Origin: Candidatus Rokuibacteriota bacterium
Lineage (GTDB): Bacteria > Methylomirabilota > Methylomirabilia > Rokubacteriales > CSP1-6
DNA length: 64,000 bases
Assembly (NCBI GenBank): GCA_016866775.1
Contig: VGLJ01000005.1
Coordinates: forward strand, 1 to 64,000
Direction: 5' to 3'
Under the pieces are notes generated by a model. It did no database searches and had not been told where the DNA came from. It saw only the letters and a list, made by a program, of their open reading frames with translations. Below are positions 3,968 through 63,020 of this stretch, piece after piece. The translations under genes and the position numbers were made by a program. The stretch's first letter is position 1. Each line of letters begins with the position of its first letter.

Positions 3968-4759
3968 CCGCAGCCCCCGTCGATCGGCTCCGCGCCCGGC
4001 TCGGGCGCGAGTGGGCGATCACCGTCGAAGTCGTCACGCCCGCCACGGATGACGACGCCGCGCGCGCGCGCATCCTCACGCTCGCGGACGCGCTGCGCGA
4101 CGACGACCGCATCGCCGCGCTGACGCTGACCGACCGCACGACGTCGCTCACCGCGGATCCCGCGTCGTTCGCCGCCGACGTGATCGCGCGCGCCGTCGGC
4201 GCCGCTCGTTCACCTCGCGGGCAAGGCGCGCGACGCGCGCGATCTCGAACACGCGTTGCGGCGCTGCGAGGCCGCGGGGGTCGGCAGCGTGCTGCTCACC
4301 GGCGGCGACCGATTGAACTCGCGGGCACCCGGGCTCACGCCCGCCCGGCTCGGGCGCCCCGCCCGCTCCGGTGCCTCACTCCGCCGGGCTCGACGCGGTC
4401 GAGATGCTTCGCGTCGCGGCGGCTGCGACGCCGGCGCTCACGCGGATCGCCGTCGCCACGCTGCCCCGGAACGTGCGCGGTCCCGTCTCGTGGGAGCGTG
4501 TCGCGGCCAAGCGTGCCGCCGGCGCCGACGCGTTCATCGCCCAGGTGAGCTGGGATCTGTCGGAGCGCGAGATCGTCGCCGAGTGGCAGGCGCGGCTGAA
4601 CGCGCCGATCCTCGGCGCCGTCGTGCTGGTGACGCCGGGGCGCCTCGCGTATCTCGCCGCGCATCACATCACCGGGATCCTCGACGAAGCCGCCGGCTGG
4701 ACGCGGCGCTCGGTGACGACTCGCGGCCGGTCTGGCGCGGGGCCATGGGCCTCGCGTAA
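3964..4759 (+). pseudogene. Methylenetetrahydrofolate-reductase-like gene, broken by indels
   Basis: Family-like protein sequence continues here but jumps frame. The first part runs in one frame from the TTG at 3964 to about 4195 (ITVEVVTPATDDD, LTLTDRTTS). The next frame carries PLVHLAGKARD and GVGSVLLTGGDRL to about 4315. The third carries [20 protein letters not shown] and [13 protein letters not shown] to about 4690. The last returns to the second frame, [14 protein letters not shown], with a TAA at 4757-4759. The break near 4320-4380 coincides with a hairpin-rich insertion. The gene sits between fdhA and fhs, where a MetF-like enzyme would fit. Either it is a true pseudogene or the sequence has errors. 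The MetF assignment rests on motif resemblance only. Confidence 0.55.
4322..4372 (+). repeat. Palindromic repeat inside the metF-like pseudogene
   Basis: A dense palindromic patch contains a stem CGGGC/GCCCG closed by a TCAC loop, followed by a second G+C hairpin. This is the architecture of the better conserved copies at 6458-6523 and 52246-52345 (first hairpin with a TTCAC loop). The encoded peptide here ([15 protein letters not shown]) does not look like enzyme sequence and coincides with one of the frame breaks, so an inserted repeat is likely. Its stem sequence differs from the other copies. Confidence 0.4.
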
Positions 4760-6443: not shown

Positions 6444-7418
6444 ATGGCACTCGCGGAGGGCTCGGATTCACTCCGAGCCCGAAGCGCAGGGGGGCTTGGG
6501 GGGCCGCCTCCAGCGGCCCCCCATCTTCAAGTCGTTCCCAACGTCAGCGAGGGGCGCGATCGGGGTGTGATCCGCGCGCTCGGCGACGCGGTCGAAGCCG
6601 CCGGCGTCCGCCTCCTCGACGTCCACGCCGACGTCGACCATCACCGCTCGGTCTTCACCTATCTCGGCGCGCCGGATGCCGTCGAGCGCGCGACGCTCGC
6701 GCTCGCGCGGGTCGCCGTCGAGCGCATCGACCTCCGCCGTCACCAGGGCGTGCATCCGCGCGTCGGCGCGGTGGACGTGGTGCCGTTCATTCCGCTTCGG
6801 GGCACGTCGATGGCCGAGGCGGTGCAGTGCGCGCGGCGTGTCGGCCGGGCGTTCAGCGAGGCGACGGGCGTGCCGGTCTTCTTCTACGCGGAGGCCGCGG
6901 CGAATCCCGCGCGCCGGGAGCTGCCCGTCATCCGCTGGGGAGGCTTCGAAGGTCTCGCGGAACGTCTCGTCGACCCCGCGTGGTATCCCGACTGTGGCGC
7001 GGCGGCGCCGCACCCGCGCGCCGGCGTGACCGTCGTCGGCGCGCGCGGCCCGCTCATCGCGTTCAACGCGATGCTCGACACGCCGGACGTCGCGACCGCC
7101 AAGTCGATCGCCGCGGTCGTCCGCCAATCCGCGCCCGGTGGGCTGCCGGCGGTACGCGCGCTCGGGGTGTCCCTCGCGAGCCGCGGCATCGCGCAGGTGG
7201 CGATGAACCTGCTCGACCATCGCCGGACGTCGCCCGCGGCGGTCGCGGATCGCGTGGAGCGGGAAGCGCAGGCGCGCGGGGTGGCAGTCCGTGAGTGGGA
7301 GCTGGTCGGCTGCGCGCCCGCCGACGCGTGGACCGACTGGACCACCACGAGCCGCGTGCTCGACGCCCGCCCCGAGCAGATCCTCGACGCGGCGCTCTTC
7401 ACGATCCCGGGGGACTGA
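6444..7418 (+). CDS. Glutamate formiminotransferase (FTCD N-domain type)
   Basis: A 324-aa protein. From residue 31 on (VVPNVSEGRD) it matches the formiminotransferase domain that moves a formimino group between N-formiminoglutamate and tetrahydrofolate. The segment HQGVHPRVGAVDVVPFIPL holds the histidine conserved at the active site. The usual protein begins almost directly with the PNVSEGR motif; here about 30 residues of repeat-derived sequence precede it, because a two-hairpin repeat lies at 6458-6523. The original start may therefore have been replaced, and the ATG at 6444 is only the first available one. There is no cyclodeaminase domain. It lies 6 bp after fhs and is probably co-transcribed with it. 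Confidence 0.82.
   Translation: MALAEGSDSLRARSAGGLGGPPPAAPHLQVVPNVSEGRDRGVIRALGDAVEAAGVRLLDVHADVDHHRSVFTYLGAPDAVERATLALARVAVERIDLRRHQGVHPRVGAVDVVPFIPLRGTSMAEAVQCARRVGRAFSEATGVPVFFYAEAAANPARRELPVIRWGGFEGLAERLVDPAWYPDCGAAAPHPRAGVTVVGARGPLIAFNAMLDTPDVATAKSIAAVVRQSAPGGLPAVRALGVSLASRGIAQVAMNLLDHRRTSPAAVADRVEREAQARGVAVREWELVGCAPADAWTDWTTTSRVLDARPEQILDAALFTIPGD
6458..6523 (+). repeat. Two-hairpin dispersed repeat, type copy
   Basis: Hairpin 1 has a perfect 9-bp stem (6458-6466 with 6472-6480) and loop TTCAC. A linker GAAGCGCAGGGGGGCT follows. Hairpin 2 has a perfect 11-bp stem (6497-6507 with 6513-6523) preceded by GGGGGGCT. The 52246 copy shares the TTCAC loop, the 9-bp stem length and the linker; the 62948 copy shares the linker and G6-CTT-G6 core. 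The element occupies the start region of the formiminotransferase gene. It looks like a REP-type palindromic element. Confidence 0.75.
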
Positions 7419-11779: not shown

Positions 11780-12624
11780 TTCACTGGCATCACAACGCGG
11801 AGACGCGCTACCCGTTCGGCGAGCGGTCGCCTGATCCGGACAGGTTCGAGCCGATCGGCTTTCCGGCGCCGTGGCCCGATCGCCCGTGGATCTTCGGCGT
11901 GATGGTCGCCTCGGCGAACGACGTCGTCGCGTGGAAGCGCGCGGGACCGGACGACGATCCCGTGCGCGCCGTGCTCGGCGGCGACGACACGCGTCCCGAG
12001 CGCATCGCCGATCGTCGCCACATGCGCCACCTCCGCTGCTTCGGCGACGTCGGGATCGGCGCGCAGACGCTCCGCGCGCAGCCGGACCTCGTCCAGACAC
12101 CGCAGGAGCCGGGCGAAGAGCCCGTGCCGGAGCTCTACGACTTCCGGCTCGCGCACGGGTTGCCGTATCACCCGCGCGCCGTCATTTACTCGCTCTTCGG
12201 CCGTCTCGACGTCGCGCATCCCGTCTTCAACACGCCCGGCCTGGACGTGATGGTGGTCGGCACGCCGGTCGCGGAGGCGACGCTCACCGCGCGCGGCGCG
12301 CGCGAGAAGGGCGTCGCGTTCGTCACCGAGCACGTGATCGATCCGGAAGCGCTGCGCCGCGCGCACGCGCGGCTCTTCGCGGATCACGGCGTGCGTTACC
12401 TCGCGTGCGAGGGCGGCGAGACGATCCTGCGCGCGCTCCACGCGGCCGGCGTTCTCGACGAGGTCTTCGTGACCGTGACCGACGCGGTCATCGACGAGTC
12501 GGCGCACGAGGACGTCCTGAGGATCGTGGACTTCGACGCGGACGGCGCTCAGCTCGTGGCGGAAGGTGCGACGAGCCCGGACAGCGCCTGGCGTTTTCGC
12601 CGCTGGCGGTTCAACGCGCGATGA
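11770..12624 (+). CDS. RibD C-terminal domain reductase-like protein
   Basis: A 284-aa cytoplasmic protein of the dihydrofolate-reductase-like RibD C-domain group. Visible features are PWIFGVMVASANDVVAW near residue 38, HMRHLRCFGDVGIGAQTLR, a strand-rich core LDVMVVGTPVAEATL, and the nucleotide-binding region RYLACEGGETILRALHAAGV near 215-234. There is no deaminase domain, so it is not a full RibD; stand-alone members have unknown substrates. The GTG at 11770 overlaps the DUF423 gene. A strong hairpin follows 9 bp after the stop. Confidence 0.75.
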   Translation: MALIHWHHNAETRYPFGERSPDPDRFEPIGFPAPWPDRPWIFGVMVASANDVVAWKRAGPDDDPVRAVLGGDDTRPERIADRRHMRHLRCFGDVGIGAQTLRAQPDLVQTPQEPGEEPVPELYDFRLAHGLPYHPRAVIYSLFGRLDVAHPVFNTPGLDVMVVGTPVAEATLTARGAREKGVAFVTEHVIDPEALRRAHARLFADHGVRYLACEGGETILRALHAAGVLDEVFVTVTDAVIDESAHEDVLRIVDFDADGAQLVAEGATSPDSAWRFRRWRFNAR

Positions 12625-12632
12625 CAGGGGGG

Positions 12633-12660
12633 TGGGGGGAGCGCCGAGACGCTCCCCCCA
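12633..12660. terminator. Bidirectional hairpin between convergent genes
   Basis: An 11-bp perfect stem (12633-12643 with 12650-12660) with a 6-nt loop lies between the RibD-like stop (12624) and the end of the peptide-binding-protein gene (12683). It has no T-run. The run GGGGGGTGGGGGGAGCG and the CCCCCCAT end also resemble hairpin 2 of the dispersed repeat, so it may be half of such an element acting as a terminator. Confidence 0.6.
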
Positions 12661-12682
12661 TGTGCATCACGCTGGCCGGGTC

Positions 12683-45612: not shown

Positions 45613-45618
45613 CTCGGG

Positions 45619-45647
45619 GGAGGGCCCCGAGTGCATCGAGGCCCTCC
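45619..45647. terminator. Hairpin between convergent genes
   Basis: GGAGGGCC (45619-45626) pairs with GGCCCTCC (45640-45647) around a 13-nt loop in the 47-bp gap between the HD gene and the minus-strand secreted protein gene. It probably terminates both transcripts; there is no T-run. Confidence 0.55.
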
Positions 45648-45659
45648 GCGAGTGCCGCG

Positions 45660-50397: not shown

Positions 50398-51705
50398 GTG
50401 CCGAACGCCACGCTCGCACAGCTCGTCCGCGATGGACGTGCCGCATTCGACCGCGGTGACTTTCGCGCGGCGCGGACGCACTTCGAGCAGTCCGCTCGCA
50501 AGACGCCCGACGACACCGGCGCGCGCTTCTGGCTGGCCGCGGCGCAGTACCACCTGGGGAACGTCCACCTCGCGCGGCCGGTCTTCGAGGAGCTCGTGGC
50601 AGCGGGCGCTCCACCGGTGCCCGATCGCGCCGCCGCGGTCCACGAGTATCTCGCGCGGTGCATGCTCACCAACGATCCCGTCCTCGCCGCCGCCGTCGCG
50701 GAAACCGGCAGCGATCGAGATCCACAGGATGCGCGCGTGCGCTTCGTGCTCGGCAATGCCCTCCTGCGCCAGGGACGGCCCGACGAAGCGCTCCGCCGGC
50801 TCGACGAGGCGCTCGCGCGCGAGCCGGAGAGCGCGGCCTATCACAACCGACGCGGCGTCATCCTCTTCGAAGGGCTCGAGGACGCGGCGGGCGCCGTGCG
50901 CTCCGCGCGCCGCGCGGTGGAGCTGGATCCGGACACGAACTCCACGGGCCGCGACGGCGCCGCGCATCGCAATCTCGCCGTCTACCTCGAGCGGATGGGA
51001 GATCATCGCGAAGCGCTCGCGGCCGTCGAGCGCGCGCTCGCCATCTCGCCGCAGCGCGAGTACAAGGCCCTGCGCGATCGCCGGCGAAACGGCGTGCCGA
51101 CCGCGCCCGCCGCGGCGCCGTTCTCGGGGCCGGCGTCCCCCTCCGCGGCGCTCACGTTCGCCGGCGTCGGCGGCATGCAGGCGCTCAAGGAACAGGTCCG
51201 GCGGATCATGGACGTGATCCTCACGAAGCGCGACGACGCCCGGCGCTACGGCATCGAGCGCAACGGCGTGCTCCTCTACGGGCCGCCCGGATGCGGCAAG
51301 ACGTTCTTCGCCGAGGCGATCGCCGGCGAATTCGGGCTGGCCTTCATTCGCGTCAGCCTCGGTGACGCGCAGACGCAATGGGTGGGCGGCGCCGCCGCGA
51401 AGCTCGAGACCGTCTTCCGCGAGGCGCGCGAGCGCGCGCCCGCGATGCTCTTCCTCGACGAGCTGGACGCGATCGCGGAGCGCCGCGACGGACTGTCGAC
51501 GGGCCACGAGCGCCAGCACGTCGCGGCCCTCCTCCAGCAGCTCGACGCCGCGCGCCGGGTGCCGCGGCTCGGCGCGGATCAGAATTCAGCAATCTCGACC
51601 TCGCCCGTGTCCGCCACGGCGCGCGTGCGGACCTCCACCCGTCCGCCGGTCGGCGTCGCGTCGATCGCGTTCGTCAAGAGATTCAGGATCACCTGCTGGA
51701 GCTGA
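50398..51705 (+). CDS. TPR-AAA+ ATPase, 3' end replaced
   Basis: The N-half carries TPR-like helical repeats (LVRDGRAAFDRGDFRAARTH, then FVLGNALLRQGRPDEALRRL and RRGVILFEGLEDAAGAVRSA). The C-half is a classical AAA+ domain beginning GVGGMQALKEQVRRIMDVIL with Walker A GPPGCGKT near residue 300 and Walker B MLFLDELDAIAERRDG near 357-370. After LLQQLDAARRV (about 51575) the reading frame runs into the opposite-strand kinase and stops at 51705. Sensor 1, the arginine finger and sensor 2 are missing. It is truncated or joined. Third gene of the SseB-like cassette. Confidence 0.75.
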   Translation: MPNATLAQLVRDGRAAFDRGDFRAARTHFEQSARKTPDDTGARFWLAAAQYHLGNVHLARPVFEELVAAGAPPVPDRAAAVHEYLARCMLTNDPVLAAAVAETGSDRDPQDARVRFVLGNALLRQGRPDEALRRLDEALAREPESAAYHNRRGVILFEGLEDAAGAVRSARRAVELDPDTNSTGRDGAAHRNLAVYLERMGDHREALAAVERALAISPQREYKALRDRRRNGVPTAPAAAPFSGPASPSAALTFAGVGGMQALKEQVRRIMDVILTKRDDARRYGIERNGVLLYGPPGCGKTFFAEAIAGEFGLAFIRVSLGDAQTQWVGGAAAKLETVFREARERAPAMLFLDELDAIAERRDGLSTGHERQHVAALLQQLDAARRVPRLGADQNSAISTSPVSATARVRTSTRPPVGVASIAFVKRFRITCWS

Positions 51706-52970
51706 TCGCGCCGCCCTTGCACGTGCGCGGATCCTGCGCCCGTGCGCACGTCGAGCGCGACACCGGCCCTCGTCACGCCGGGACGCACGAGCTCGACCGT
51801 GTCGCGCGCGAGGCGCTCGACGTCGACGGGCCCGGGCTCGCCCGGCGCCCGCCGCGTCACGTCGAGCAGGCCGGCGATGATGGTGTTCACGCGATGGAGC
51901 TGGGCGTCGATGATCCCGAGCCGTCGCGCCGCCTCGTCGGGGGCGCCGCTCGGGCCGAAGTCCTTGCGGAGCAGCTCGAGGTGGCCGGCGACGGAGTGGA
52001 GCGGCGTGCCGATCTCGTGCGCGACCTCGGCCATCACGCGGCCCGAGAGCGCGAGCCGTTCGGCGTGGCTCAGACGGCGCTGCATCGCGAAGAGCAGGCC
52101 GTTCAACCGCTCGAGCTCACCGGTCGCCTCGGCCACGCGCGTCTGGAGCTCCTCGTTGAAGCGCCCGATGCGCGAGACCATCTCGTTGAACTGCCGCGCG
52201 AGGACGCCGAACTCGTCGCCCGTCTTGACGTCGACCAGAGGCGGAGGGCCGGGATTCACTCCCGGCCCGGAGCGCTGGGGGGCTGAGAGGTTTGGGGTCC
52301 GCCAGTTGTGGGGCCCCGTGTCCGACGGCGCGCTCTGAGCCCCCCAATCAGAGATCGCCCGCATGAACTTCCCGATCGGGCGATCGACGACGAAGTGGAT
52401 CGCGACGCCGATCAGGACGCCGATCACGATCACCGACGCCGCGGCCAGCGTCACGGCCCAGAAGCGGATGCGCGAGGTCAGCTCGTCCGCGCGCTGCGCC
52501 GAGACTTTCACCGCGACCGCGCCGACGACCGATCCGTCGAGCGCGATCGGCGCCATGACTTCCCAGTGACGGTCGGCCCCGCTCGTCACGGCGCGCGTGA
52601 CGACGGTGCCCTGACGCACCTCGGGGGTATCCCGCTCGACGAGCGGCAGCGTCTTGCCCGCGTGACTGGTGGCCACGACCACTGGCCCGTCCGGGGTGAA
52701 GGACACGACGTCGAGCTGGAGGACGCTGCTGCGGATGTCGCGGAGGCGCACGATCAGCCGCTCCACCTCGCTCCCGCCCTCCAGGCGGTGGCCTTCGCCC
52801 AGGGTGACGGCGACTTCGCGCGCGTACACGGTGGCCCGCCGCCGCAGATCCTCCTCGATCGCGACCTGGGTGAGGGCCAGGCTGAGCCACGTGAAACCGG
52901 TGGAGACGGCGAGCACGACCAGCGCGCCGAGGAGAATCAGCTTGTGCCGGACGCGGATCATGCGGGTCAT
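51579..52970 (-). CDS. HAMP sensor histidine kinase, 3' end missing
   Basis: A 463-aa fragment. TM1 is near residues 10-30 and a periplasmic domain runs to TM2 (about 175-200), then HAMP, coiled coil, and the HisKA H-box EVAHEIGTPLHSVAGHLELL. An N-box start LLTNAIDATP follows. The G1/G2 nucleotide boxes (DTGxGI) are absent because the frame breaks at VEIAEF*, at the junction with the AAA+ gene. The HAMP linker holds an inserted repeat (residues about 208-243). A -10 TATAAG lies 9 nt before the ATG. It cannot be active as read. Confidence 0.75.
   Translation of the reverse strand: MTRMIRVRHKLILLGALVVLAVSTGFTWLSLALTQVAIEEDLRRRATVYAREVAVTLGEGHRLEGGSEVERLIVRLRDIRSSVLQLDVVSFTPDGPVVVATSHAGKTLPLVERDTPEVRQGTVVTRAVTSGADRHWEVMAPIALDGSVVGAVAVKVSAQRADELTSRIRFWAVTLAAASVIVIGVLIGVAIHFVVDRPIGKFMRAISDWGAQSAPSDTGPHNWRTPNLSAPQRSGPGVNPGPPPLVDVKTGDEFGVLARQFNEMVSRIGRFNEELQTRVAEATGELERLNGLLFAMQRRLSHAERLALSGRVMAEVAHEIGTPLHSVAGHLELLRKDFGPSGAPDEAARRLGIIDAQLHRVNTIIAGLLDVTRRAPGEPGPVDVERLARDTVELVRPGVTRAGVALDVRTGAGSAHVQGRRDQLQQVILNLLTNAIDATPTGGRVEVRTRAVADTGEVEIAEF
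52246..52345 (+). repeat. Two-hairpin repeat inserted in the HAMP region
   Basis: Hairpin 1 has a perfect 9-bp stem (52246-52254 with 52260-52268) and the same TTCAC loop as 6458-6480. The linker GGAGCGCTGGGGGGCT (52269-52284) matches GAAGCGCAGGGGGGCT there. The distal part ends AGCCCCCC at 52345. The element lies antisense to the kinase and adds about 36 codons in frame (e.g. PHNWRTPNLSAPQRSGPG on the kinase strand) between the two HAMP helices. Confidence 0.75.
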
Positions 52971-59629: not shown

Positions 59630-60995
59630 CGCGCTGGTACGCATGACCGACGCGCAGCACGGTGCTCTCGGCGAACGGCCGTCCCACGAGCTGCATCGCC
59701 AACGGCCGCCCATCCGCTGAGAAGCCGCAGGGCACGGAGAGCGCGGGCAGGCCGAGCCCGTTGAACGGCCGCGTGAGCCGCGAGAACGTGCCCATGCGCG
59801 CGACGACGTCCTCCGCCGTGCCGGCCTTCGCGTTCGCGAGCGCCGGCGCGGCCTCGGGAATCGTCGGCGCGACGAGCACGTCCACCTCTGCGAACACGTC
59901 CGCCACGAACTGACGCGCGAGCTGCGCCCGCAGCCGCCCGGCCTGCAGGTAGTCGTGCGCGGAAATCTGGAAGCCGACCTCGAGCCGCGTGCGAACCGCC
60001 GGCTGCAGCTCGTGCGGGCGCTCGCGCACCACGCGCTCGTGGATCACGGCGCTCTCGGCGCGCGCGAGCACGTTCGCGATGCCGCTCTGCACCGCGGGAT
60101 CGGGGACGCGGACGGGACGGGTCGCGATCCCGAGCGTGCCGAGCGTGCGGAGCGCTTCGCGCACGGCGGCGTCGACGCCGGGCGCGAGCCCCTCGAAGTA
60201 GTAGCTCTCCGGAACGCCGACGCGCAGCGCTCTCACCGGCGCGTCGAGCGCGGCGGCGTAGTCCGGGACCCGTCGATGGCTGCTGGTGGCGTCGCCGGGA
60301 TCGTGACCCGCGATGATCGCGAGCATCACGGCGGCGTCGTGCACGGTCCGCGTCATCGGACCGATGTGGTCGAGCGACCATGAGAGCGGCATCGCGCCGG
60401 CGCGGCTCACGCGCCCGTACGTCGGCTTGAGCCCGACGATGCCGCACACGGCGGCGGGCAGGCGGATCGAGCCACCGGTGTCGCTGCCGAGCGTGCCCGG
60501 TGCGAATCCCGCGGCGACGGCGGCGGCGCTGCCGCTCGACGAGCCGCCGGAGACGTGGCCGAGGCGCCACGGATTCTGCACGTCGCCGTGGTGCGCGTTG
60601 TCTCCGAACGGCCCGAGCGCGAGCTCGCTCATGTTGAGCTTGCCGAGCGTGATCGCGCCCGCTTCCCGAAGGCGCACGACGGCCGTGCATTCGCGGGGGC
60701 TCGTGAAGTACTCGGCCGTCTTCGTCCCGCACGACGTCGGCAGCCCGGCGACGTGGCAAAGGTCCTTGTAGGCGAGCGGCACGCCGTGGAGCGGGCCCCG
60801 CCACCGGCCGGCCGCCGCGTCGGTATCCAGCGCACGCGCGGCCGCGAGCGCGCCGTCGCCGTCCACCGTGATGAAGCTGCGGATCTTCGGATCGAGCCGC
60901 GCGATGCGGTCGAGGTACTCCCGCGTCGCCTCCGTCGCGGAGATCTTCTTCGTCCTGATCGCCTCCGCGAGCCCGACGATCGTCCAGTCAGTCAC
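59592..60995 (-). CDS. Amidase (GatA/AtzE-like)
   Basis: A 467-aa amidase-signature enzyme. The triad is complete: Lys in VPLAYKDLCHVAGL near residue 77, cis-Ser in VSGGSSSGSAAAVAAGF near 150, and the nucleophile in LGSDTGGSIRLPAAVCGIVG near 172. It resembles GatA and AtzE amidases. The GTG at 60995 lies inside the last codons of a 55-aa ORF, an arrangement like atzG-atzE or gatC-gatA pairs where a small partner is encoded just upstream. The substrate is unknown. Confidence 0.87.
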   Translation of the reverse strand: MTDWTIVGLAEAIRTKKISATEATREYLDRIARLDPKIRSFITVDGDGALAAARALDTDAAAGRWRGPLHGVPLAYKDLCHVAGLPTSCGTKTAEYFTSPRECTAVVRLREAGAITLGKLNMSELALGPFGDNAHHGDVQNPWRLGHVSGGSSSGSAAAVAAGFAPGTLGSDTGGSIRLPAAVCGIVGLKPTYGRVSRAGAMPLSWSLDHIGPMTRTVHDAAVMLAIIAGHDPGDATSSHRRVPDYAAALDAPVRALRVGVPESYYFEGLAPGVDAAVREALRTLGTLGIATRPVRVPDPAVQSGIANVLARAESAVIHERVVRERPHELQPAVRTRLEVGFQISAHDYLQAGRLRAQLARQFVADVFAEVDVLVAPTIPEAAPALANAKAGTAEDVVARMGTFSRLTRPFNGLGLPALSVPCGFSADGRPLAMQLVGRPFAESTVLRVGHAYQRVTDWHTRRPALG

Positions 60996-61155
60996 GCTCG
61001 GGCTCCGCGCCGCTCTCGAGCGCCGCGGCGAAGTTCGACGGCTCCTCGCCGAGCGCGATCGCGGCGCCGGCGCGCTCGATCAGGCCCGCGAGCGCGGCGA
61101 CGTCCGCGCGCGCCCGCCGTTCGTCCGCGCGAGCGGGCTGCTCGGGCGCTGTCAT
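60988..61155 (-). CDS. Small acidic-tail protein, possible amidase partner
   Basis: A 55-aa ORF whose ATG overlaps the stop of the carboxyltransferase gene and whose stop overlaps the amidase start. The sequence is an Arg/Ala-rich start followed by AALAGLIERAGAAIALGEEP and SNFAAALESGAEPERD, a likely helix pair. Size and position recall AtzG and GatC, small stabilising partners of amidases; I see no diagnostic motif. The tight overlaps argue that it is translated. Confidence 0.55.
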   Translation of the reverse strand: MTAPEQPARADERRARADVAALAGLIERAGAAIALGEEPSNFAAALESGAEPERD

Positions 61156-62936
61156 TTGGCCGGGCGCGCCTTCTTCGGCCGCTCGTGGCCCTTCACGATC
61201 TGCGAGCGGATGAGGCGCGGCAGCATCAGGTGGTGCTGCGGGCAGAGCGACGCGGGATTCTGGTACGCGCTGCCGGCGAACGCGACCATGTAGCGGCGGA
61301 GATCCTCGTAGCGGACGACCTCGTCGACGAAGCCGCGCTTCGCGCAGAAGATCGGACGCGACTGCTCGGCATACTGACGTGCCAGCGCGTTCATCTGGTC
61401 GATCACCGGCTTCAGCGGCCGGCCCGCGTCCTTCTCGCGCACGAGCCGCCGCGCGCACGATGCGACCGCCGCCGTCTCGCCGTGCATGACCACGATCTCG
61501 GTGCTCGGCGTGCCGAGCGTGAACGCGTTGTGGTTGTTCGCCGTCGGTCCGCCCATCACGTAGTGCGCGGCCGCGGTGCCCTTGCGGAGCACGACCAGCA
61601 TCATCGGCACGCCGGTCTGCTCGATCGAGTAGATGAGTGACTGGCCGAGACCGAGCAGCTCCGCCTTCTCCGCCGTGTCGCCCACGTCGATGCCGCTCGT
61701 GTCCTGGAGCCAGATCATCGGCACGCGGTCGCGCCCGCAGTGCGTGACGAACTCGTTCATCTTGATCAGGCCCTGCCGGTAGAGCTTGCCGCCGATGCCG
61801 ATGTAGTCGGTCGCGTACTCCGGATACTGCATGCCGAGCAGGCCCTGGCGATTGCCGACGACGCCGATGAGGAAGCCGTCGACCTTCACGAGGCCGGTGT
61901 AGACCTCGGGGCCGAAGTCCGGACGGAACTCCATGTGCTCGCTGCCGTCGACGAGCCGCGCGAGCACGTCCCCGAGGCTGTACACCGCCTTCGGGTTCAT
62001 CGGCACGATCGACTCGAGATCGGCGAGCGGATACGCGGGCTCGGCCGGCGCGGCGACGCGGAAGAACGTCGGATCGTACCCGGGGAGCTGCGCCATCGCG
62101 CCCTTCAGCGCGTCGAGCACCTGGGTCTCGGTGTCGAACACCGCGCGGAAGAAGCCGGTGACGTCGTGATGGACGCGCACGCTGCCGGGCGGCGCCTCCT
62201 TGAACGCGCGCGTGGCGGTGATGATCTGCTCCGCGCTCTCCTCGTCGAAGCCGCCCTTCGGGCTCATGCCGCTCACGATGCCGGCGCCGCCCACGGCCAT
62301 GTTCGCGTTCTTGTGCGCGAAGAGCATGGTCGGGCTGATGCTCTGGTAGCCGCCGCCCGCCGGGTTGGTGCCGTAGATCCCCGCGAGGATCGGAATGCCG
62401 AGCTTCTCGAGCTCCGCGTGGCGGAAGAACGTGGTGCCGTGGCCGCGACGGTCCGCGTACACCTGGTCCTGCTCCGGCAGCTTCACGCCCGAGCAGTTCA
62501 CGAGCCAGACGAGCGGGACGCGCAGGCGCTGCGCGAGGTCGGTCACGCGGAGCTGGTTCTCGGCCTGCCCCGCGATCCACGCGCCGGCGAGCACCTTGTT
62601 GTCGAAGCCGATCAGCACGCACCACTTGCCGCGGATCCGCGCGAGCCCGTCGACGACGCCCGTGGTGCCTTCCTCGTTCTCCCGCGGGTCGTACAGCGTG
62701 TGCAGCGGGCAGAAGCTGCCGGGATCGACGAGGTACTCGATGCGGTCCCACACCGTCATCTCGCCGCGCTCGCGGATCTTCTCGGCGGGGAGGCCGGCGT
62801 TCTTCACGCGCCCGACCTCGGCGTCGAGCTCCTTCAGCATCGCCGCGACCTGCGCGCGGTTGTCCGCCATCTCGTCGAGCTCGAAGGGCTTGAGCGGCTT
62901 GCCGAGCGCGTCCATCTTCTCGAAGTACTGGCGCAA
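61152..62936 (-). CDS. Acyl-CoA carboxyltransferase, glutaconyl-CoA decarboxylase alpha (GcdA) type
   Basis: A 594-aa carboxyltransferase with two crotonase-fold halves. The family line is VNCSGVKLPEQDQVYADRRG, IYGTNPAGGGYQSISPTMLF and AVGGAGIVSGMSPKGGFDEE in the N-half, and GGKLYRQGLIKMNEFVT and LGLGQSLIYSIEQTG in the C-half. These resemble GcdA from memory of Acidaminococcus. It would move a carboxyl group from glutaconyl-CoA (or a similar acyl-CoA) to biotin; no biotin carrier gene follows here. Start is TTG at 62936 with GGGAG 6 nt upstream, right after a repeat. Confidence 0.8.
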   Translation of the reverse strand: MRQYFEKMDALGKPLKPFELDEMADNRAQVAAMLKELDAEVGRVKNAGLPAEKIRERGEMTVWDRIEYLVDPGSFCPLHTLYDPRENEEGTTGVVDGLARIRGKWCVLIGFDNKVLAGAWIAGQAENQLRVTDLAQRLRVPLVWLVNCSGVKLPEQDQVYADRRGHGTTFFRHAELEKLGIPILAGIYGTNPAGGGYQSISPTMLFAHKNANMAVGGAGIVSGMSPKGGFDEESAEQIITATRAFKEAPPGSVRVHHDVTGFFRAVFDTETQVLDALKGAMAQLPGYDPTFFRVAAPAEPAYPLADLESIVPMNPKAVYSLGDVLARLVDGSEHMEFRPDFGPEVYTGLVKVDGFLIGVVGNRQGLLGMQYPEYATDYIGIGGKLYRQGLIKMNEFVTHCGRDRVPMIWLQDTSGIDVGDTAEKAELLGLGQSLIYSIEQTGVPMMLVVLRKGTAAAHYVMGGPTANNHNAFTLGTPSTEIVVMHGETAAVASCARRLVREKDAGRPLKPVIDQMNALARQYAEQSRPIFCAKRGFVDEVVRYEDLRRYMVAFAGSAYQNPASLCPQHHLMLPRLIRSQIVKGHERPKKARPAK

Positions 62937-62947
62937 TTTGATCTCCC

Positions 62948-63020
62948 TGGGGGGCTCCGGGCGCCCCCCAAGCCCCCCGCGCTCCGCGCCCCGGCAAAGC
63001 CGTGGCGCTCCGCGAGCGCC
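62948..63020 (-). repeat. Two-hairpin repeat between dehydrogenase and carboxyltransferase genes
   Basis: Read on the minus strand it starts with a perfect 7-bp hairpin (63020-63014 with 63010-63004), contains GGCTTTGCC (63001-62993), then GGAGCGCGGGGGGCTTGGGG with a G6-C6 hairpin (62948-62955 with 62963-62970). The linker and G6-CTT-G6 core match the 6481-6503 copy. It abuts the acyl-CoA dehydrogenase stop and lies just before the carboxyltransferase ribosome site. Confidence 0.65.

Follow-up and report, generated by a model that had tools for sequence, protein, structure and literature searches.

REPs lie between co-directional and convergent genes and occasionally within genes, and those of the CGTC type have no dedicated transposase (PMC3733652). 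Rickettsia palindromic elements (RPEs) have in-frame fusion to conserved proteins as their hallmark (PMC2229807). Small palindromic repeats for which no mover is known, such as CGTC REPs and RPEs, are a long-standing puzzle; the large family described here has a sharply defined 5′ end, a loop that hardly varies and a collar of mismatches. A search of one literature collection for Rokubacteria repeats returned no description of it. The family was analysed in the window, by which we mean the whole stretch of 64,000 nt of Candidatus Rokuibacteriota DNA under study (contig VGLJ01000005.1, positions 1 to 64,000), in the source genome (5.13 Mb, 159 contigs, 97.5% complete) and in other genomes; all genomes compared are draft metagenome assemblies. 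We read it, with a probability of roughly 0.7, as a non-autonomous mobile repeat of about 78 nt, REP/RPE-like, that has multiplied across a Rokubacteria family by way of a folded single strand moved in trans.

Anatomy of the repeat and its copies in the window

A covariance model, R1, was made from 29 copies; run over the window with filters off, it gave three clear copies (E-values 5e-13 to 3e-6). They are listed here with their parts and with two probable partial copies.

6446..6525, plus strand: full copy (R1 model positions 1-77); R1 82.6 bits
6458..6480, plus strand: hairpin 1, 9-bp stem with TTCAC loop; CGC/GCG pairs close a GGA/GAA internal loop outside the stem; from fold and covariation
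6489..6523, plus strand: G6-CTT-G6 core and hairpin 2 (GGGGGGCCGC CTCCA GCGGCCCCCC); from fold and model alignment
12625..12662, plus strand: probable partial copy limited to hairpin 2 (G6-T-G6 ... C6 ATGT); R1 23.8 bits over 12590-12662, fold z −3.7
45620..45655, minus strand: probable partial copy limited to hairpin 1 (GGCACTCGCGGAGGGCC...TGCAC...GGCCC); R1 22.3 bits, R2 21.7 bits
52234..52346, plus strand: copy with a long hairpin-2 variant; R1 46.6 bits over 52234-52306, running on to about 52346
62946..63020, minus strand: full copy with variant loop CTTTG; R1 44.9 bits, gene calls, Pfam

The hairpins at 6458, 52246 and 62948 all belong to one unit, a two-hairpin DNA repeat of about 78 nt with the layout GGCAcTCGCGGAG-(9-bp stem, loop TTCAY)-CGGAGCG-N-G6-CTT-G6-(variable stem)-C6-ATG. 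Its anatomy and boundaries were derived from 133 copies with their flanks, in which the 5′ boundary is sharp (GGCA, then CGCGGAG) and the 3′ boundary softer (C6-ATGT, then a weak tail, CRATCA). Hairpin 1 typically has a stem of nine pairs and, in most copies, the loop TTCAC (71) or TTCAT (29); 3′ of it come CGGAGCG, one to three bases, G6-CTT-G6 and then hairpin 2, which has G6:C6 at its base and a variable middle. Two pairings of hairpin 2 are possible because two G6 runs stand opposite one C6 run, and the alternative register is the one predicted for the 62946 copy. Among source-genome copies, a GGA/GGA internal loop separates the outer CGC/GCG pairs from hairpin 1, and its G.A and A.G mismatches are near-invariant (58/59 and 56/59 copies). 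The internal loop of the relatives is CGAG/CGAG or AGAG/CGAA, with G.A and A.G present in 32 of 32 rows across genera. The three true copies have RNA folding z values of −4.2, −4.0 and −3.5. Rfam 15 gave no match in the window at the gathering score, nor over element copies at E ≤ 1; the Rfam scans returned only a group II intron and a tRNA. Three loci, L004, L009 (window 52234-52346) and L048, share the longer hairpin-2 variant (GGGGGGCTGAGAGGTTTGGGG... or similar) and form an apparent sub-family.

An earlier sequence-only reading of the window had described the 9-bp hairpin, TTCAC loop and core at 6458-6523 and 52246 exactly as we find them, and the likeness to hairpin 2 that it saw at 12633 is borne out by the probable half copy there. 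The site at 62948, said to share the linker and core, is indeed a copy of the element, but it lies on the minus strand and its loop is of the CTTTG type rather than TTCAC. The TCAC-loop hairpin assigned to the family at 4322 was rejected as a member: it has no model match and folds no better than shuffles (z −0.5). The half copy at 45620-45655 had been overlooked.

A separate feature of the window is a perfect 12/12 match to the sigma-70 consensus at 97-124 (TTGACA-16-TATAAT), which stands in a very GC-rich genome and is the only promoter-like match in 14 kb.

Copy number, covariation and spread

The exact core GGATTCACTCC occurs 65 times genome-wide, against 0 for a reversed-pattern control, and R1 finds at least 145 genomic copies at E ≤ 0.01 among 150 scored candidates, well beyond chance, as the proposal of a dispersed repeat family had anticipated. 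Two contig ends of the source assembly, L089 and L195 (G000 C115 and C59), have a common flank with two slightly differing copies and are probably strain variants or overlapping contigs.

The compensatory covariation first suggested by a few copies holds in two independent alignments. For hairpin 1 in the source genome, 97.2% of cells pair and 48 cells are altered on both sides; the covariation score is 0.174 compared with 0.044 for shuffled alignments, and none of 500 shuffles reaches the observed value. Hairpin 2 likewise covaries in its middle. Between genera, both sides change in 9 of 12 hairpin-1 pairs (score 0.223 versus 0.074 shuffled, 0/500). The signal is lost when the partner column is slid by one to three positions, and the TTCAY loop and the flanking G.A/A.G mismatches stay fixed while the stems covary. 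Since hairpin arms can correct each other at replication, the covariation tells us that the arms stay matched, not what selects for the matching. A joint alignment of the source and relatives' copies placed hairpin 2 one column out of register; separate models were therefore used for the source genome and for the relatives (R2, built from the relatives' copies).

When named genomes were scanned with a sequence pattern, nearly all records recovered were Candidatus Rokuibacteriota, and the host family is accordingly taken to be Rokubacteria. R2 matches are found in 45 of 57 genomes of the family and in 19 of its 24 genera, with a patchy distribution: seven family genomes hold at least 83 matches each, 83 being the number of candidates scored, and several genera have none. 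Four Acidobacteria records (L120, L121, L133 and L147) carry a related form at 39-43 bits, in tandem in L133 and L147; because the pattern used to pick these loci already specifies part of the core, the form may reflect either shared descent or convergence. Viral contigs gave no element match.

Tandem arrays of element-like units, with about 75-100 nt per unit, occur in the Acidobacteria loci L133 and L147 and in the Rokubacteria loci L119, L130 and L177. One further record labelled Acidobacteria (L138, QHVJ01000223.1) has a Rokubacteria element of the type seen in G017 at its contig end and is possibly a mis-binned contig.

Insertion sites and gene context

At three operon junctions, relatives have the two flanks joined with no element between them: 10 relatives upstream of nuoA, 8 at trpC/trpF and 5 at rplT/pheS (gene names were assigned from reading of the translations). 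A copy in htpG is missing in the relative G001; the two proteins share 85% identity across the part that aligns. As the same sites are empty in relatives, the copies at these four sites are shown, at the level of sequence comparison, to be insertions. A small number of native bases or residues appear to have given way to the element in htpG, pheS and ligD, where the relatives are too distant to fix the exact ends.

Gene context was taken from gene calls by a simple codon-usage scorer and is approximate. With the element set on the plus strand, the flanking genes run (−,−) in 50 cases, (+,+) in 38, (+,−) in 30 and (−,+) in 1. Divergent pairs, at 1 of 119 copies, are far too few, given that such pairs make up about 14% of the background (binomial P about 2e-7), and convergent pairs are enriched, both here (30/119, P 0.003) and in the relatives (17/36, P 5e-6). 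At least 10 copies lie within open frames that have coding signal on either side, in several frames and both orientations; they include copies in htpG, ligD, an AMP-forming ligase, a penicillin-binding protein, a larC-like gene and others. An ATG in pheS adjoins the element, which is then read as an N-terminal extension.

In the window, the copy at 6446-6525 lies directly downstream of a formate-THF ligase gene (Pfam FTHFS); an ATG at 6444 abuts it, so that the element forms an N-terminal extension of the formiminotransferase ORF 6444-7418, in which the FTCD_N Pfam match begins at residue 29. The 52234 copy is antisense and in frame within a histidine-kinase ORF (51579-52970, minus strand), at the HAMP connector; the ORF is open across the element, with coding score present on either side, and Pfam matches HAMP only over profile positions 29-51, followed by HisKA and HATPase_c. 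The copy at 62946 fills 62937-63020, the interval that separates an acyl-CoA dehydrogenase gene from a carboxyl transferase gene; it is co-directional with both and begins beside the upstream stop codon. Both half copies are in convergent gaps, that at 12625-12662 adjoining an SBP_bac_5 gene and that at 45620-45655 within the gap 45613-45659. Taken together, these placements show that the copies that survive mostly follow a gene, occupy an operon gap, separate convergent genes or are fused in frame into a protein linker. Housekeeping proteins have been invaded repeatedly, in frame, by the same peptides of 25-39 residues, and the element can mislead gene-start calls in Rokubacteria annotation.

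Such a distribution could also be expected of an RNA element useful to the host (a bidirectional terminator, an mRNA stabiliser or a processing site) and selected at gene 3′ ends, which would fit the convergent enrichment, the near-absence from divergent gaps and the conserved loop with its G.A collar. We consider this unlikely, however, since the element has no U-tract and the terminator scan did not call it in the scanned stretch, copies lie within operon junctions (trpC/trpF, rplT/pheS) and inside genes on either strand, whole genera of the family are without it, and the tested sites are not conserved in relatives.

The mover and the relation to known repeats

A miniature transposon (a MITE or minimal IS) that depends on a dsDNA or rolling-circle transposase from another locus would be short, dispersed and insertionally polymorphic, as this element is, and the source genome does hold IS91-like Y2 genes. 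Against it, no target-site duplication was seen at any offset tried (best z 2.7 of 1,440 tests), a check that the sequence-only reading had itself suggested, and no terminal inverted repeats were seen, the ends GGCA and C6-ATGT not being inverted copies of each other. It is the fold rather than the sequence that is kept, which dsDNA recognition does not predict. The IS91-type Y2 genes are patchy: G017 and G035 lack them although both are heavily loaded with the element, and no element copies lie at the ends of those Y2 loci that were examined. We therefore regard this explanation as quite improbable. The proposed label of REP/MITE-like stands in its first half, as a REP-like dispersed family with covarying stems; a MITE in the strict sense is not supported because both the target-site duplication and the terminal inverted repeats are lacking.

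The sequence-only reading had guessed at a RAYT (Y1 HUH transposase), which would make these true REPs; in favour are the hairpins with covarying stems, the missing target duplication and the REP-like placement at gene ends and within genes (PMC3733652). Y1_Tnp (PF01797) has 0 matches in the source genome, one partial match, in G009, among ten other genomes with the element or a look-alike, and none in five other Rokubacteria carriers, G005, G010, G017, G030 and G035; positive controls were detected. The G009 match (L275, on contig C45), which might count in favour of a RAYT, has no element copy nearby. Moreover, the element has no GTAG tag at its stem base, and its two hairpins in about 78 nt contrast with a unit of 20-40 bp. 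With Y1_Tnp absent from the source genome and the five carriers, the RAYT reading is not supported; it is mostly refuted and very improbable, and in most hosts the mover is not a RAYT. Chance hairpins, common as these are in a very GC-rich genome, are refuted by the 65 exact cores against 0 in controls, the at least 145 model matches and the empty sites.

RVT_1 was also rejected as the mover, its occurrence being patchy and not tracking the element. Model scans around Y1, RVT_1 and Y2 genes found only two copies, one near a group II intron (L296) and one near a weak RT fragment in G009 (L281), and both are incidental neighbours of these RT-type genes. The intron, at L296 3865-5983 (G000 contig C4, about 59864-61983; Rfam RF02003 D1-D4 and RF00029, with RT), begins roughly 100 nt from the element copy, and the element hairpins might serve as landing sites for group II introns.

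Returning to the preferred reading of a non-autonomous mobile repeat, we infer that what moves is a folded single strand. A trans-acting enzyme would recognise this strand (ssDNA, or RNA that is copied back) via hairpin 1 and its mismatch collar; insertion would proceed without target duplication, sometimes with the loss of a few target bases, and selection would then purge copies that break genes or sit in promoters. Because most genomes of one family carry the element while some genera are devoid of it, candidate movers can be sought directly by comparing which genes carriers and non-carriers possess. More tentatively, and with considerable doubt on our part, the family may represent a new class of small mobile element, defined by a folded strand, an enzyme other than the Y1 REP type and recognition of a TTCAY pentaloop with a G.A/A.G collar, found in Rokubacteria and in a related form in some Acidobacteria.

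Compared with the GTAG and CGTC REPs (PMC3733652), the family is alike in its dispersed palindromes, varied stems and co-directional or convergent placement, sometimes inside genes. It is a REP in the wide sense of the term: a dispersed palindrome of high copy number that mostly occupies unidirectional and convergent gaps. Unlike REPs, it consists of two dissimilar hairpins with a G6-N3-G6 linker between them, about 78 nt in all, with a TTCAY pentaloop in a G.A/A.G collar and no RAYT found. Where GTAG REPs carry an unpaired GTAG tag, the stem base here is CGCGGAG in the source genome and CGAG or AGAG in relatives, with GTAGAG in some relatives only, and no PF01797 gene flanked by repeats accompanies it in the source genome. 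In CGTC-type REPs, an 8-9 bp stem carries an unpaired CGTC tag at one of its ends; here CGTC is found only inside hairpin 2, at its loop, and never as an end tag. The paired terminal inverted repeats and target-site duplication of MITEs are both absent. TnpA-REP systems, or REPtrons (PMC8266576), in which a folded single strand is recognised by stem and loop, provide a working analogy, but they need a RAYT, which is lacking in most carriers, and they differ in their unit and in the GTAG guide, of which the element has none. RPEs (PMC2229807) are likewise small palindromic repeats that lie in frame inside conserved protein genes and also between genes, and the 10 in-frame copies with the empty htpG site in a relative match this behaviour. 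RPEs differ in being 105-146 bp long, with a long stem-loop and terminal inverted repeats, and in belonging to Rickettsia; the comparison with our element, of about 78 nt with two hairpins and no terminal inverted repeats, was made on their published length and placement. The family lies outside the GTAG REPs, the CGTC REPs and the MITEs as these are defined, and it behaves like REPs and RPEs.
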